Source: an uncultured Paracoccaceae bacterium
GTDB lineage: Bacteria; Pseudomonadota; Alphaproteobacteria; Rhodobacterales; Rhodobacteraceae
Direction: 5' to 3'
Length of the DNA: 64,000 bases
Assembly: GCA_947500825.1 (NCBI GenBank)
Contig: CANMTR010000014.1
Coordinates: 1 to 64,000, forward strand
Shown here: one piece after another, positions 49,559-55,247 of the stretch
Layout of the letters: every line of letters starts with the position of its first letter
Position numbering within the stretch: the stretch's first letter is position 1
Program-made: the position numbers and the translations under genes
Notes under the pieces: generated by a model
What the model was told of the DNA's origin: nothing
What the model saw: only the letters and a program-made list of their open reading frames with translations
Database searches by the model: none

Positions 49559-50539
49559 TCACAACCGCGGTGCCGGGCCGAGCGGCACCGGGCCGAGCCA
49601 GACGCGCCCGTCCCGCAGCTCCAGCGGCACGCGCACCCGGTCCGCCCGCTCCGTGCCCGCCGACAGGGCGCCAAGGCCCTGCCGGGCCATCTCCAGCCGC
49701 CCCTCCGCCAGAAGCCCGGCCGCTTCGGCGATCTCCAGCGCCCGGTCCCAACCGGTCAGGGTCACGTCGAGCCGCCCCGTGAGCAGGCCCTCGGGGCCCA
49801 CGTCGAGCGTACCTTCCGCGTCGAGCGCGGCGCCGCCCCAGTCCAGGTCGAGCCGGTCGATCTCGATCCGCTCCACCGCGATCTCGCCGGTCTCCAGCGC
49901 CAGCCGGGTCGGCGCCGCGTCGAGATGCACGAGCGCGTCGAGCGTCACCCCGTCCACCAGCCGCGCCTCGGCGCCCGCCCCGGGCAGCAGGTCGCGGGGC
50001 AGGGCCACGTCATCGAGGGTAACCCCGATATTCTGCACGTCGGCCTCCATGCCGTCCGCCACGCGGGTCGCGGCGAGCACGCGGCCCGCCGCCGCCTCCC
50101 GCCCCGCCCAGCGGGCGGTGGCCTCCTCCCAGACGAGGTTGGCGTGGTCGAGCATGCCGCCCGCCTCGGGCGAGAAGGTCGCCGAGGCCCGCGCCCGGCC
50201 CGCGCCGACCTCGACCGCCCCGGCGGCGGTGTCGAGCGTCTGGGTCTCGGGGAAGGCCACGATCACCCGGTTGGGCGCGTAGCTCAGGGCGAAGACCTGC
50301 AGGAACGGCGCCGACCAGCCCGCGCCGCCGGGCCACGCGACCCGGGGCGCGTCGATCATGGTGTCGAAGCGGTTGGGAAAGCCGGTGACGCGGATGTCAT
50401 CGGTCTCCACCGAGACGCCGCGCGCCTCCATCCGCGCGATGCCTTCGTCGATGGCCGAGCGCAGCATGCGCGACCCCACGACCCAGTAGGCGGACCAGGC
50501 CGCCGAGACGACGACGATCAGGGCGATCAGGATTCGCAT
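49559..50539 (-). CDS. DUF2125 family protein
   Basis: A 326-residue protein with an N-terminal membrane anchor or signal (MRILIALIVVVSAAWSAYWVV) and a long beta-rich periplasmic part. The pattern RVTGFPNRFDTMIDAPRV and SYAPNRVIVAFPETQ is that of DUF2125 proteins, common in alphaproteobacteria and of unknown function. It may be a periplasmic beta-taco/lipid-transfer type protein like the AsmA group, which is inference. Divergent from the ChaC-like gene with 45 bp between them. Confidence 0.82.
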   Translation of the reverse strand: MRILIALIVVVSAAWSAYWVVGSRMLRSAIDEGIARMEARGVSVETDDIRVTGFPNRFDTMIDAPRVAWPGGAGWSAPFLQVFALSYAPNRVIVAFPETQTLDTAAGAVEVGAGRARASATFSPEAGGMLDHANLVWEEATARWAGREAAAGRVLAATRVADGMEADVQNIGVTLDDVALPRDLLPGAGAEARLVDGVTLDALVHLDAAPTRLALETGEIAVERIEIDRLDLDWGGAALDAEGTLDVGPEGLLTGRLDVTLTGWDRALEIAEAAGLLAEGRLEMARQGLGALSAGTERADRVRVPLELRDGRVWLGPVPLGPAPRL

Positions 50540-50584
50540 CTTGGGTCCTTTTCCCGTCGGTCCGGGGGAGATATAGCCCCGGCC

Positions 50585-51148
50585 ATGGAACCGCCAGCGA
50601 CACAAGGTCCGATGTGGGTCTTCGGGTACGGCTCGCTCGTCTGGAACCCGGAATTTCCCGTGGCCGAACGCCTCGTGGCGCGGCTCTCGGGCTATGCCCG
50701 CACCTTCTGCATGAGCTCGGTGCACCACCGCGGCACGCCCGACCTTCCGGGGCTGGTGCTGGCGCTCGACGCCCGGCGGGGCGAAAGCTGCACGGGCCTC
50801 GCCCTGCGCGTGGAGCCCGGCCACGAGGCCGACACGCTGGTGCGCCTGCGCGAGCGCGAGCTCGTCTCCTCCGCCTACCTGGAGCGGCGCCTGCCGCTCA
50901 CCCTCGCGGACGGCCGCGCGGTGGAGGCGGTGGCCTACGTGGTCGACCCCGACCACGACCAGTACCGTGGCGCCCTCACGCTCGAGGAGCAGGCCCGCAT
51001 CATCGCCGACGCCACCGGCGGACGCGGCCCCAACGACGAGTATCTCTACAACACCTCGTCCCACCTGGCCGATCTCGGCATCTCCGATCCCGACCTCGAC
51101 TGGCTGTCCGAGCGGGTCCGCCGCCTGCGGGGCGCCGACGGCGCGTGA
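50585..51148 (+). CDS. ChaC-like gamma-glutamylcyclotransferase
   Basis: A 187-residue ChaC-family protein that degrades glutathione to 5-oxoproline and Cys-Gly. The substrate loop WVFGYGSLVWNPEFPV, FCMSSVHHRGTPDLPGL, the acidic RERELVSSAYLERRLP and the end GPNDEYLYNTSSHLADLGI are typical. ATG 50585 lies close to the divergent DUF2125 start. The next plus-strand gene starts 43 bp downstream. Confidence 0.92.
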   Translation: MEPPATQGPMWVFGYGSLVWNPEFPVAERLVARLSGYARTFCMSSVHHRGTPDLPGLVLALDARRGESCTGLALRVEPGHEADTLVRLRERELVSSAYLERRLPLTLADGRAVEAVAYVVDPDHDQYRGALTLEEQARIIADATGGRGPNDEYLYNTSSHLADLGISDPDLDWLSERVRRLRGADGA

Positions 51149-51191: not shown

Positions 51192-52346
51192 ATGGCAGGG
51201 CAGGGCAGCCAGATGACCTTCAGCGCCGGGCGCGACCTGCGCCCCAGGTTCACGCGGCCGCTGCGGCAGGTCGTATCGATGGTCCTGGTCCTCGTGCTGA
51301 CCTGTCTCGGCACCGTTCTGGCCTGGCCCAGCGTGGCGCCCGTCTTCCTCGCCAACCCGGCGCTGAACGGGTTCATCGGGCTGGTCTTCCTCGTGGGCGT
51401 GCTGGCCTGCTTCGGTCAGCTCTGGCAGCTCTGGCAGTCGGTCGACTGGCTGCAGGGCTTCGCGGCCGAGGCGCCGGGCTATCGCCTGTCGGCCGCGCCG
51501 CGCCTGCTCGCGCCCCTGGCCACGCTCATGCGGTCCCGCGGGCGCCACGCCCAGATCAGCGCGACCTCGTCGCGCTCCATCCTCGACTCTGTCGCGACCC
51601 GCATCGACGAGGCGCGCGACATCACCCGCTACATCGTCAACCTTCTGATCTTCCTCGGCCTTCTGGGCACGTTCTACGGCCTGGCCACCACCGTTCCCGC
51701 CATCGTCGAGACGATCCGCGCCCTCGCCCCGGAGGAGGGCGAGGACAGCCTCGCCATCTTCTCGCGCCTGATGGACGGGCTCGAAACGCAGCTCGGCGGC
51801 ATGGGCATCGCCTTCGGCTCCTCGCTCCTGGGCCTGGCGGGATCGCTGGTCGTGGGCCTGCTGGAGCTCTTCGCCAGCCACGGGCAGAACCGGTTCTACC
51901 GCGAGCTGGAGGAGTGGCTCAGCTCCATGACCCGCCTCGGCCTCGCCGGAGAGGAGGGCGGCGGCGACACCGCCGGCGCCACGGCCGTCCTTGAGCACGT
52001 CTCCGCCCAGATCGACCGGCTCGAGGACATCCTGGCGCGGGGCGAGGCGCGCCGGGCCGAGAGCGACGCCCGCCTGGCCGAGATCCTCGCCGCGCCCCGC
52101 GAGGGGGGCGACCTCGCCCCCGCCATCTCGCGCCTGGCCGACGGCCAGGACCGCCTCGCCGCCGCGCTCGCGGACGGCCCCGGCGAGGGCCTCGATTCCG
52201 AATCCCGCCTGCGCCTGCGCTCCCTCGACGTGCAGGTCCTGCGTCTCTCGGAGGAGGTCGCCGCCGGCCGCGTCGAGGCCACCGCCGAGATCCGCCACGA
52301 GTTGCGCCAGGTCGCCCGCGCCCTGTCGCGCGCCCGCGCCGAGTGA
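51192..52346 (+). CDS. MotA/TolQ/ExbB-like ion-channel subunit
   Basis: A 384-residue protein with two N-terminal hydrophobic segments (about 28-46 and 56-76), a cytoplasmic stretch, then two long helices near 150-175 (IVNLLIFLGLLGTFYGLATTV) and 205-230 (GIAFGSSLLGLAGSLVVGLLEL). The GLLGTFYGL and GSSLLGLAGS helices resemble the pore helices of MotA/TolQ/ExbB/ZorA. The C-terminal ~120 residues are a charged coiled coil. With the next gene it forms a stator-like pair. An in-frame ATG at 51213 is an alternative start. It is not flagellar MotA: no flagellar genes are near. Confidence 0.82.
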   Translation: MAGQGSQMTFSAGRDLRPRFTRPLRQVVSMVLVLVLTCLGTVLAWPSVAPVFLANPALNGFIGLVFLVGVLACFGQLWQLWQSVDWLQGFAAEAPGYRLSAAPRLLAPLATLMRSRGRHAQISATSSRSILDSVATRIDEARDITRYIVNLLIFLGLLGTFYGLATTVPAIVETIRALAPEEGEDSLAIFSRLMDGLETQLGGMGIAFGSSLLGLAGSLVVGLLELFASHGQNRFYRELEEWLSSMTRLGLAGEEGGGDTAGATAVLEHVSAQIDRLEDILARGEARRAESDARLAEILAAPREGGDLAPAISRLADGQDRLAAALADGPGEGLDSESRLRLRSLDVQVLRLSEEVAAGRVEATAEIRHELRQVARALSRARAE

Positions 52347-52373
52347 GGCCCCGCCCATGCCCCTGAGCGCCCC

Positions 52374-53975
52374 ATGCCCCTGAGCCGCCGCGCCACGGGC
52401 CGCGTCACCGCCAATATCTGGCCCGGCTTCGTCGACGCGGTGACCTCGCTCCTGCTGGTCGTCACCTTCGTCCTGTCGATCTTCATCGTCGTCCAGTACG
52501 TCCTGCGCGAGGAGATATCGGGCCAGCAATCGCGTCTCGACGCGCTCGCGGGCAAGGTCGAGACCCTGTCGGCCGCTCTGGGCGTCGCCGACAGCCGCGC
52601 CGAGGCGCTGGCCGCCGAGGGCGTCGAGCTGCGCGGCACCCTTTCGCGGCGCGACGAGCGCATCGCCGCGCTCGAGGCCGAGAGCGCCCGCCGGGCCGCC
52701 CGCGCGGAGGAGGCGGCGTCGGCACGCGACGCGGCCCTCTCAGACCTCGCCGCCGCCCGCGACGAGATCGACGCCGAGGCGGAGGCCGCGCGCCTCGCCG
52801 CCGCCCGCGCCGACGCGCTGGCGGCCCTGGCCGACCGGCTCAGGGGCGAGGTGGCCGAGGGCGCGGAGCGGACCGCCGCCCTGCAATCGGACCTCGACGC
52901 CGAGGAGGCCGCCCGTTTGGCCGAGGCCGCGGCGGCCGAGGACCTGCGAGACCGCCTTTCGGACAGCCGCGCCGAGCTGACGGCCATGGCGCTCGACCTC
53001 GAGGAGCAGCGCGCCCGCGCGGAGGAGACGCTGACCCTGCTCGCCGCCGCCCGCGCCGCCGGGGACGCGCTCGACGCGCGCCTCGCCGACGCCCTTGCCG
53101 GCCGCGACACCGCCGCCGCCCGGGGGGAGGAGGCCCGCGCCCGGGCCGAGGACCTGCGCGCGCGCCTCGCCGACGCGCTCCTGCTGGAGCGCCAGGCCCG
53201 CACCCGCGCCGCGGCCGAAGGGGAGGCGGCCGAGCGCCAGGCCACGCTTCTCGACCTGGCCCGCTCCGAGCTGGCCGAACGGGACGCCGCGGCCGAGGAC
53301 GCCGCCCGCGACCGGGCCGCCCTCGACGTACAGGTCGCCCGCCTGGAGACCCAGGTCGCCACCCTGCGCTCGCTCCTCGACGTGGCGGAGGAGCAGGAGA
53401 GCGCCGCCGAGGGCGAGATCGCCGACCTGGGCCGGCGCCTCAACGCAGCCCTCGCCCGCGAGGCGGAGGAGCAGCGCCGCCGCGCCGAGCTGGAGGCCGC
53501 CGAACGCGAACGGCTCGAAAGCTACCGCTCCGAGTTCTTCGGCCGCCTGCGCCAGGTCCTGGGCGGCCGCGAGGGAGTGGAGATCGCGGGCGACCGCTTC
53601 GTGTTCGACAGCGAGGTGCTGTTCCCCTCGGGCTCGGCCGACCTGTCGCAGGCGGGGCGCGACCAGGTGGCCCGGGTGGCCCGGCTCCTGGACGACGTGC
53701 GCGCCCAGATCCCCGACGGGATAGACTGGGTGATCCGCGTCGACGGCCATACCGACGACGTGCCCCTCTCGCCGCGCAGCCCCTACGACGACAACTGGGA
53801 GCTGAGCCAGGCCCGCGCCCTGTCGGTGGTGCGCTACATGTCCGGCGAGCTGGGCTTCCCGCAGGACCGGCTCGCGCCCACGGGCTTCGGCGAGTTTCGC
53901 CCCCTGGACGCGTCCGGCACGCCCGAGGCCCGCGCCCGCAACCGCCGCATCGAGCTCAAGCTGACCGAGCGCTAG
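52374..53975 (+). CDS. MotB/OmpA-like peptidoglycan-binding coiled-coil protein
   Basis: A 533-residue partner of the preceding channel subunit. One N-terminal membrane helix (~17-41) begins WPGFVDAVTSLLLVV; Asp21 sits where MotB/ZorB/ExbD have the proton-binding Asp. Residues ~50-385 are an Ala/Glu/Arg-rich coiled coil of more than 300 residues. The OmpA domain (~400-533) has FDSEVLFPSGSADLS, VDGHTDDVPL, ELSQARALSVVRYM and ARNRRIELKL, which bind peptidoglycan. This suggests a proton-driven envelope machine with a very long periplasmic stalk. The start region is duplicated (17 bp). Confidence 0.85.
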   Translation: MPLSRRATGRVTANIWPGFVDAVTSLLLVVTFVLSIFIVVQYVLREEISGQQSRLDALAGKVETLSAALGVADSRAEALAAEGVELRGTLSRRDERIAALEAESARRAARAEEAASARDAALSDLAAARDEIDAEAEAARLAAARADALAALADRLRGEVAEGAERTAALQSDLDAEEAARLAEAAAAEDLRDRLSDSRAELTAMALDLEEQRARAEETLTLLAAARAAGDALDARLADALAGRDTAAARGEEARARAEDLRARLADALLLERQARTRAAAEGEAAERQATLLDLARSELAERDAAAEDAARDRAALDVQVARLETQVATLRSLLDVAEEQESAAEGEIADLGRRLNAALAREAEEQRRRAELEAAERERLESYRSEFFGRLRQVLGGREGVEIAGDRFVFDSEVLFPSGSADLSQAGRDQVARVARLLDDVRAQIPDGIDWVIRVDGHTDDVPLSPRSPYDDNWELSQARALSVVRYMSGELGFPQDRLAPTGFGEFRPLDASGTPEARARNRRIELKLTER

Positions 53976-53979
53976 GTGC

Positions 53980-54744
53980 TCAGGTGTCGCCCTGGGTCTC
54001 GATGTAGATGGTGTTGCCGCAATGCTTGCAGTGGCTGGCGTCGTGGTCGTGGGCGCCCAGGCCGCAATCCTCGCAGGTCACCTGCGCCTTGTTGGGCCGG
54101 TAGATCGCCTGGAGAAGCTGCAGGAAGAAGCCCACGCCGAAGATCATCATGAAGATCGTCAGGATGCGGCCCACCCGGTCCTCCAGCGTGATGTCGCCGT
54201 AGCCCGTCGTGGTCAGGGTCGTGATGGTGAAGTAAAGCGCGTCCACCAGCGTGTCGAGGTTGGGGTTGCGGTCGTGCTCGACCACCCAGACGATGGATGT
54301 CGCCACGAAGATGAACGCGAGCAGGTTCAGCGCGGCGACCGAGACCCGCGTGTTGACGTTGAGCCGACCCAGCACCTCGTCGATCCACCCCGCCACCCGG
54401 AAGGTGCGGATCAGGCGCAGCACCCGCAGCACCCGCAGGAAGGCCAGGTTCGACCCCGCGAAGAGGGGCGCCAGCAGCGAGGCCATGACCACGATGTCGG
54501 CCAGCGTCGGCAGCGACAGCAGGAACTTCCAGCGGTTGTCCGCGATCCAGCCCCGCGCGATCACGTCGGACAGCACCACGAGCCCCACGGCGATGTCCAC
54601 GGCAACGATCCCGGCGTTGAACCGGGAGGTGGCGGTTGCCAGGAAGTAGGCGATCGTCGCGAGGTCGAACACGAACAGCGCCCCGCGAAAGACGCGCGGC
54701 GCCGTGCCCTCGCCCTCGTAGAGGTTGGCGAGCGTGTCGCGCAT
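53980..54744 (-). CDS. Voltage-gated-type potassium channel with C-terminal zinc ribbon
   Basis: A 254-residue six-helix ion channel. A voltage-sensor-like S4 has spaced Arg (FLRVLRVLRLIRTFRVAGW), and the pore carries the K+ filter TTTGYGD near residues 178-184. After S6 a short tail has four Cys in two pairs (CEDCGL and CKHCG), a zinc-ribbon pattern not common in such channels. It is convergent with the stator-like pair (4 bp between ends) and 8 bp after bcp on the same strand. Confidence 0.9.
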   Translation of the reverse strand: MRDTLANLYEGEGTAPRVFRGALFVFDLATIAYFLATATSRFNAGIVAVDIAVGLVVLSDVIARGWIADNRWKFLLSLPTLADIVVMASLLAPLFAGSNLAFLRVLRVLRLIRTFRVAGWIDEVLGRLNVNTRVSVAALNLLAFIFVATSIVWVVEHDRNPNLDTLVDALYFTITTLTTTGYGDITLEDRVGRILTIFMMIFGVGFFLQLLQAIYRPNKAQVTCEDCGLGAHDHDASHCKHCGNTIYIETQGDT

Positions 54745-54752
54745 CGCGCGCC

Positions 54753-55247
54753 CTATTGCGGCTTGTCGGCGGCCGTGGCCTCTCCGGGGAAGGCCTCGCG
54801 CACCGCCTTCAGCACCGCTTCGGCATGGCCGTCGACCTTCACCTTGCGCCACTCGGCCCGCACCACCTTCTCCGGGTCCACCAGGAAGGTCGCCCGCTCG
54901 ATCCCCATGGAGGTCTTGCCGTACATGGTCTTCTCCACCCAGACGCCGTAGGCCTCGCAGACCGCCCCGTCCTCGTCCGACAGGAGCGCCACCTTCAGGT
55001 CGTGCTTGTCGCGGAACTTGTCCTGCTTGGCGACCGGGTCGCGCGAGATCCCGAGGATCGTCACGCCCTGCGCGGCGAACTGGTCCACCATCTCGGTGAA
55101 GGCCTGCGCCTCCTTGGTGCAGCCCGGCGTGTCGGCCCTGGGGTAGAAGTAGATCACCACCGCGCCGTCCACCTGCGACAGGGTGACGGTCTCGCCGCCG
55201 TCGCGGGGCAGGGTGAAGTCCGGGGCGGGCTGGCCGGTCAGGTCCAT
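54753..55247 (-). CDS. bcp: Thioredoxin-dependent peroxiredoxin (Bcp/PrxQ)
   Basis: A 164-residue peroxiredoxin reducing hydrogen peroxide and organic peroxides. The peroxidatic Cys is C43 in ADTPGCTKEA. The resolving Cys five residues later in E. coli Bcp is Gln48 here, but C97 (DGAVCEAYG) is placed like the resolving Cys of the alpha-3 type of PrxQ. Other phrases: YFYPRADTPG, ILGISRDP, SMGIERATFLVDPE. It lies directly before the potassium channel gene. Confidence 0.92.
   Translation of the reverse strand: MDLTGQPAPDFTLPRDGGETVTLSQVDGAVVIYFYPRADTPGCTKEAQAFTEMVDQFAAQGVTILGISRDPVAKQDKFRDKHDLKVALLSDEDGAVCEAYGVWVEKTMYGKTSMGIERATFLVDPEKVVRAEWRKVKVDGHAEAVLKAVREAFPGEATAADKPQ

Follow-up and report, generated by a model that had tools for sequence, protein, structure and literature searches.

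A core-genome gene pair of Alphaproteobacteria related to ZorA and ZorB, with a coiled-coil anchor whose length tends to vary in whole heptads, is probably an uncharacterised housekeeping machine

The stretch of DNA analysed here (the window; 64,000 nucleotides, forward strand of contig CANMTR010000014.1, assembly GCA_947500825.1, from an uncultured Paracoccaceae bacterium) carries at 51192..53975 two adjacent genes, A and B, which a first-pass annotation had read as a MotA/TolQ-like gene followed by a MotB-like gene, in an arrangement of the ZorAB/MotAB type. Both reading frames were found, 27 bases apart on the same strand, and the pair proved to belong to the core genome of many Alphaproteobacteria, not to the sporadic, accessory gene pool expected of Zorya. 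We consider it rather likely that A and B form a Zor-type, proton-driven A5B2 motor of the inner membrane that is coupled to the cell wall, is not a flagellar stator and probably does not serve Zorya defence; the pair is probably an uncharacterised housekeeping machine. What is new here is a putative core-genome motor of Zor type with no known effectors nearby, B being already known as an NCBIfam family without an assigned function.

As read from its sequence and from a structure prediction (all predictions were of single chains), A consists of four membrane segments and a C-terminal helical tail; the model shows helices at residues 24-43, 45-54, 56-91, 104-116, 124-177 and 186-252, followed by the tail (mean predicted local distance difference test score, pLDDT, 82.4). 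Among 32 aligned A proteins, most of the invariant positions fall within helices 3 and 4 (LGLLGTF, T160, T167 and GMG.AF..S). When the model was searched with Foldseek, the first 48 rows were ExbB, TolQ and ZorA, with a probability of 1.00 for most (best E value 0.007, none at or below 0.001), and a second structure aligner placed MotA behind these three among the fold neighbours. A has the motor-type fold, with pore helices 3 and 4, of the 5:2 ion-driven motors. It differs from MotAB in that the cut-off of the Pfam MotA_ExbB model was not reached (E = 0.24; 11.6 versus 22.9 bits). When PDB sequences were searched with an A profile, the 60 matches listed out of 104 all fell in the tail and were of coiled-coil or helical kind. 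By analogy the tail would be cytoplasmic. Its conserved end is missing from several of the 32 aligned rows, and in 5 of the 200 A proteins that could be measured no more than 70 residues follow the fourth helix. An alternative start of A, the ATG at 51213, better fits the starts of many relatives.

The presumably wall-anchored partner, B, matched the Pfam OmpA model (4.6e-16), as annotated, and the nearest structures to this domain are MotB-like. The candidate proton-binding residue, D21, stands where the first-pass annotation had placed it. That annotation had let its proposal hang on the conservation of this residue, and every one of 211 non-identical B proteins, that of the window among them, has the Asp (202 recognised by pattern, 9 read by eye). 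Across 26 aligned B proteins W16, P17, G18, V20 and D21 are invariant, together with the GHTD and NRR motifs of the OmpA domain, which have a role in binding. The B model contains long helices at residues 17-105, 115-209 and 218-396 and a domain of OmpA fold (mean pLDDT 73.6; predicted template-modelling score, pTM, 0.36). Because of this pTM the arrangement of the long helices is unreliable, and a reading of the helix breaks as hairpins was rejected for the same reason. The view that the pair consists of chance open reading frames (ORFs) was likewise rejected.

Between the membrane helix and the OmpA domain, the window's B has a real coiled coil: residues 47-400 contain no proline, the best period of linker hydrophobicity is 3.5 (with a power of 9.2, as against a maximum of 4.5 among 500 shuffles) and the model is helical over long spans, which bears out the annotated coiled coil of over 300 residues. 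Measured from an FVD motif to an SEFF motif immediately before the OmpA domain, the linkers of 81 Rhodobacteraceae-set loci had a median length of 496 residues, with extremes of 297 and 991; the lowest value among the other alphaproteobacteria, 21, is probably a pattern error. Each protein was paired, once, with its nearest relative of different length, which makes the pairs disjoint and not fully independent of kinship, and loci without the motifs were dropped (28 of 109 in the Rhodobacteraceae set, 25 of 93 among the others). The length difference was divisible by seven for 19 of 40 pairs of the Rhodobacteraceae set (p = 5.5e-7 versus 1/7) and for 17 of 34 pairs of the separate set of other alphaproteobacteria (p = 8.6e-7). 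An earlier run with three near-duplicates kept gave 16 of 41 (p = 9e-5), so that the count depends somewhat on the pairing; in that run differences in A-tail length, taken as a control, were divisible by seven in 1 of 31. Since the differences are preferentially whole heptads, the register of the linker tends to be kept and its length does not. A coiled coil extends by about 0.15 nm per residue and the periplasm is 20-30 nm wide; linkers of 350 and 990 residues would span an estimated 52 nm and about 147 nm, respectively. Because this reach exceeds the width of the periplasm, the anchor is unlikely to be a straight radial strut, and one so much longer would rather be a folded, tilted or sideways tether.

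The distribution of the pair was determined in 40 genomes of relatives, 289 genomes of the class and 299 of the phylum. A was present in 34 of the relatives (21/27 genera), in 189 genomes of the class (148/224 genera) and in 76 of the phylum; B, at E 1e-25, was present in 185 genomes of the class. Both genes occurred together in 182 of the 289, A alone in 7, B alone in 3 and neither in 97. Among 217 A loci examined for gene order (the window is present twice, along with a few near-duplicates), B lies immediately 3' of A in 205. The pair is retained in genomes of 0.7-1.4 Mb, and several small genomes keep both genes on separate contigs. Inheritance was probably largely vertical. One locus (L259, genome G557) has a divergent A of about 560 amino acids and a weak B-like ORF upstream and not downstream; the other listed members of its family, f13, lack the pair. 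Outside the class there were 17 phylum matches: five strong (E 3e-93 or better), six at E 2e-17 to 5e-5, and six weak (E 2.5e-7 to 6e-4). The three strong matches placed in the tree described below (L231, L232 and L233), which also have B, come from genomes whose labels put them in other classes (G570, G447 and G370) and fall inside the A clade, a nesting for which transfer and classification are both conceivable explanations.

The tree comprised 62 proteins and 394 columns, that is 30 A, 6 ZorA3, 1 ZorA1 and 25 PF01618 proteins (unsorted MotA/TolQ/ExbB, from 25 of 30 loci, the other five yielding no row). It separates A, ZorA3 and ZorA1 from all 25 PF01618 rows (support 100/93) and unites the A proteins (89/79) and the ZorA3 proteins (100/99) each in one group; the midpoint root, used for drawing only, leaves L334, one of the PF01618 rows, together with A and the Zor proteins. 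The separation of A plus ZorA3 from ZorA1 is weakly supported (95/45) and the placement of ZorA1 is unsure (end branch 3.5, with a long-branch warning), so the Zorya type nearest to A is uncertain. The PADLOC models of ZorA and ZorB matched A (2.2e-9, 34.6 bits) and B (1.1e-21, 75.4 bits), respectively. On these sequence comparisons, the pair is a ZorA/ZorB-homologous core pair, in line with the arrangement first proposed.

Zorya type III, as defined in the accessible parts of PMC8565338 and PMC11890865 (ZorA3/ZorB3, ZorF with DUF3348, ZorG with DUF2894), likewise combines a MotA-like membrane core and tail with an OmpA-bearing partner that has an N-terminal membrane helix, and A joins ZorA3 in the tree, albeit weakly. 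The six matches of intermediate strength outside the class are long ORFs, of which two scanned with PADLOC score as ZorA3 (815 and 895 bits) and three scanned with Pfam carry DUF802. In one of them (L303) the gene order by Pfam is DUF3348, a DUF802 protein, an OmpA protein and DUF2894, which is that of Zorya type III; all six loci (L301-L306, other Pseudomonadota) are of this kind, the rest by similar gene order. The ZorA-like ORFs of these loci measure 675-1074 amino acids as against 384 in A, so that ZorA tail length also varies widely, and their partner ORFs, of 208-227 amino acids, lack the long coiled coil of B. Zorya III further differs in its ZorF/ZorG neighbours, none of which lies among the scanned genes of the window, and in being accessory, A-B being widespread in the class.

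A survey in mBio of MotAB relatives keeps ZorAB outside its phylogeny and, in its accessible parts, describes non-flagellar B subunits as lacking an OmpA-like domain (PMC12505986); on both counts the A-B group apparently falls outside that survey. TolQR and ExbBD have a TolR/ExbD domain where B has an OmpA domain, and A stands apart from them in the tree; the window's genome has separate PF01618 proteins, one of them (L001) TolQ-like by reading. The first-pass annotation had thought the machine possibly undescribed. This no longer holds for B, which scores 598.5 bits against NCBIfam NF006542 (cut-off 388) and 308.6 bits, narrowly above the cut-off of 305, against NF006543; these families (NF006542-NF006546, PRK09039, 'peptidoglycan -binding protein') are annotated without a described function or partner. 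RSP_1880 and RSP_1033, named in PMC9275681 and PMC10470522, may or may not be relatives of B. The former, which has a peptidoglycan-binding domain and comes from Rhodobacter sphaeroides, is placed under the CenR targets and among the proteins that accompany the division lipoprotein DalA; the accessible parts of the two papers do not contain the pair. As to function, the word stands: no paper on it was found in the open-access literature as far as accessible, and the available parts of PMC12204202 and PMC11974857 are without the pair.

In the published picture of MotAB and ZorAB, an A pentamer turns round a B dimer, protons pass the Asp and B is held by peptidoglycan (PMC9389320 and PMC11890865, accessible parts). 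By this token A and B would assemble as an A5B2 motor in the inner membrane, and the path of the protons would run by D21, where B meets helices 3 and 4 of A. The OmpA domain would fix B to peptidoglycan by way of a coiled coil that keeps its register and is free in length, and rotation or tilting of A relative to B may be passed to the cytoplasm by the helical tail of A, as the ZorA tail may do. In 202 A-B pairs (205 before duplicate removal), residue couplings between helices 3/4 of A and the B helix make up 14 of the 50 strongest inter-protein couplings, where about 6 would be expected, and 22 of the strongest 100; 12 re-pairings within two groups, made as a control, gave 0-10 and 6-15. The couplings fit an A-B contact, if weakly; the helices compared were chosen from known motors, and among the top 10 and top 20 couplings the true counts of 3 and 6 were equalled or exceeded by a re-pairing (3 and 7).

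A different machine is suggested by a third gene, X, whose product combines a signal peptide, recognised by eye, with a stretch rich in Pro and Ala and an OmpA domain of divergent sequence (Pfam 1.4e-8 to 4.7e-13 for the four proteins tested). A and B could belong to a Tol-like envelope machine with X as its secreted, OmpA-like partner at the outer membrane or septum, which we regard as possible and on the whole unlikely. Outside the Rhodobacteraceae set (L056-L066, L161-L260), a script placed X immediately 5' of A at no fewer than 74 of 104 diverse loci; two more (L171, L194) have an adjacent X by coordinates, which an overlong A frame hid from the script, and the L252 stretch ends near A. 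Over the 289 genomes, A and X co-occur above expectation (125 genomes with both, 64 with A alone, 35 with X alone and 65 with neither; odds 3.6, uncorrected for kinship). Against this, X lies beside A in none of 113 Rhodobacteraceae-set loci, the GHTD and NRR motifs are absent from it, and no A was found in 35 genomes with X; 20 such X-only loci were fetched, none of which had a match for A or B next to X, at least two of them ending shortly past X. X was therefore rejected as an obligatory third partner and is best seen as a frequent neighbour. The constant partner for which the first-pass annotation had asked exists in this looser form in other alphaproteobacteria and not in the Rhodobacteraceae set, where a chaC-like gene is found instead.

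That the pair is a passive tether between inner membrane and wall, its channel residues being relics, seems to us improbable. The wide variation of the linker in whole heptads would be odd for a torque-bearing rod of fixed span and speaks for such a tether, but D21 and the pore helices of A are among the most conserved positions.

A Zorya-like phage-defence module with its effectors elsewhere in the genome is less probable still. The grouping of A with ZorA, the PADLOC matches of both proteins and the type III Zorya loci found as the nearest examined relatives outside the class argue for it. It is opposed by the core-genome spread, the conserved neighbours of housekeeping type and the persistence of the pair in small genomes; the defence role suggested in the first-pass annotation is disfavoured because of this distribution. 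No Zorya model matched any of ten scanned neighbours in the window (the scan left aside a small gene of peroxiredoxin-like type at about 54.8-55.3 kb, and ZorF/ZorG or other effectors were not searched genome-wide), Pfam found no Zorya partner domains in three window neighbours, and HflX was the sole scanned neighbour with weak matches, to LeoA/LeoBC. Zorya I/II ZorAB (PDB 8qyd, 8vvn, 8vvi) are accompanied by ZorC, ZorD or ZorE, none of which is among the ten. Unlike the widespread A-B, one ZorA1 model at E 1e-15, the sole ZorA model used in this search, matched in 1 of 200 genomes of the phylum. Plain membership in Zorya was rejected on the distribution and the lack of Zorya partners among the scanned neighbours.

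An extra flagellar stator is very improbable and was rejected: MotAB/PomAB share with the pair a four-helix A, an Asp in the B helix and an OmpA domain nearest MotB-like structures, and the window's genome carries FliG (on a different contig, in keeping with the annotated absence of flagellar genes close by), but A is apart from the MotA/TolQ/ExbB rows, and FliG, matched in 17 of 34 genomes tested, gave no match in 16 genomes that carry both genes and measure at most 1.8 Mb (four under 90% complete) or in G001, a species of the window's genus.

The positions of the pair, its parts and the conserved chaC-like neighbour are compiled in the table.

Table. Coordinates in the window of genes A and B, their features and the chaC-like neighbour
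Feature	Position	Strand	Basis
chaC-like gene, upstream of A	50585..51148	+	Pfam; conserved neighbour in Rhodobacteraceae set
Gene A, MotA/TolQ/ExbB/ZorA-fold subunit	51192..52346	+	ORF, 384 amino acids
A, third membrane helix, residues ~145-177	51624..51722	+	By eye and model; invariant LGLLGTF, Thr160/Thr167
A, fourth membrane helix, residues ~190-230	51759..51881	+	Limits by eye and model
A, C-terminal tail, helices 260-300, 308-328, 336-383	51969..52343	+	Predicted; end motif conserved in most of 32 rows
Gene B, MotB/ZorB-like subunit, NCBIfam NF006542	52374..53975	+	ORF, 533 amino acids
B, membrane helix, residues ~17-45	52422..52508	+	Sequence, alignment, model
B, Asp21 codon, candidate proton-binding residue	52434..52436	+	Alignment
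B, heptad coiled coil, residues ~46-396	52509..53561	+	No Pro, periodicity, model
B, OmpA-like domain, residues 416-524, GHTD and NRR motifs	53619..53945	+	Pfam, alignment, structure

Upstream of the pair, DUF2125-like and chaC-like genes (49559-51148 in the window) adjoin A-B in most Rhodobacteraceae-set loci. A chaC match was obtained at 109 of 123 loci, 108 of them within the 112 Rhodobacteraceae-set loci; a functional link of the chaC-like gene to the pair is unproven. Clustering of neighbours in 110 loci (104 from outside the Rhodobacteraceae set) gave inositol-monophosphatase-like proteins (76), elongation factor P (67), an ABC transporter (53), ThiE-like proteins (46), X (43) and ribosomal protein L31 (41), all names other than ABC transporter being readings of the sequences. 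Convergent with B, an ion-channel gene lies on the minus strand at 53980-54780 (Pfam Ion_trans_2, with a zinc-ribbon-like Cys tail), the nearest NCBIfam model of which, a potassium channel, scored below its cut-off.

Overall, a housekeeping rotary motor across Alphaproteobacteria, sharing an ancestor with Zorya and held by a coiled-coil anchor that evolves freely in whole heptads (~300-990 residues), is a proposal we give an even chance. More tentatively, its role might be to couple the proton-motive force to the wall or to report wall tension to the cytoplasm. If the motor is real, about two thirds of the tested alphaproteobacterial genomes would have an unstudied proton-driven, wall-coupled machine. 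As a relative of Zorya outside defence, the pair would then allow the action of the motor to be studied apart from effectors and offer an entry to the origin of Zorya, and its coiled coils would form a natural length series for testing the linker length in a 5:2 motor.
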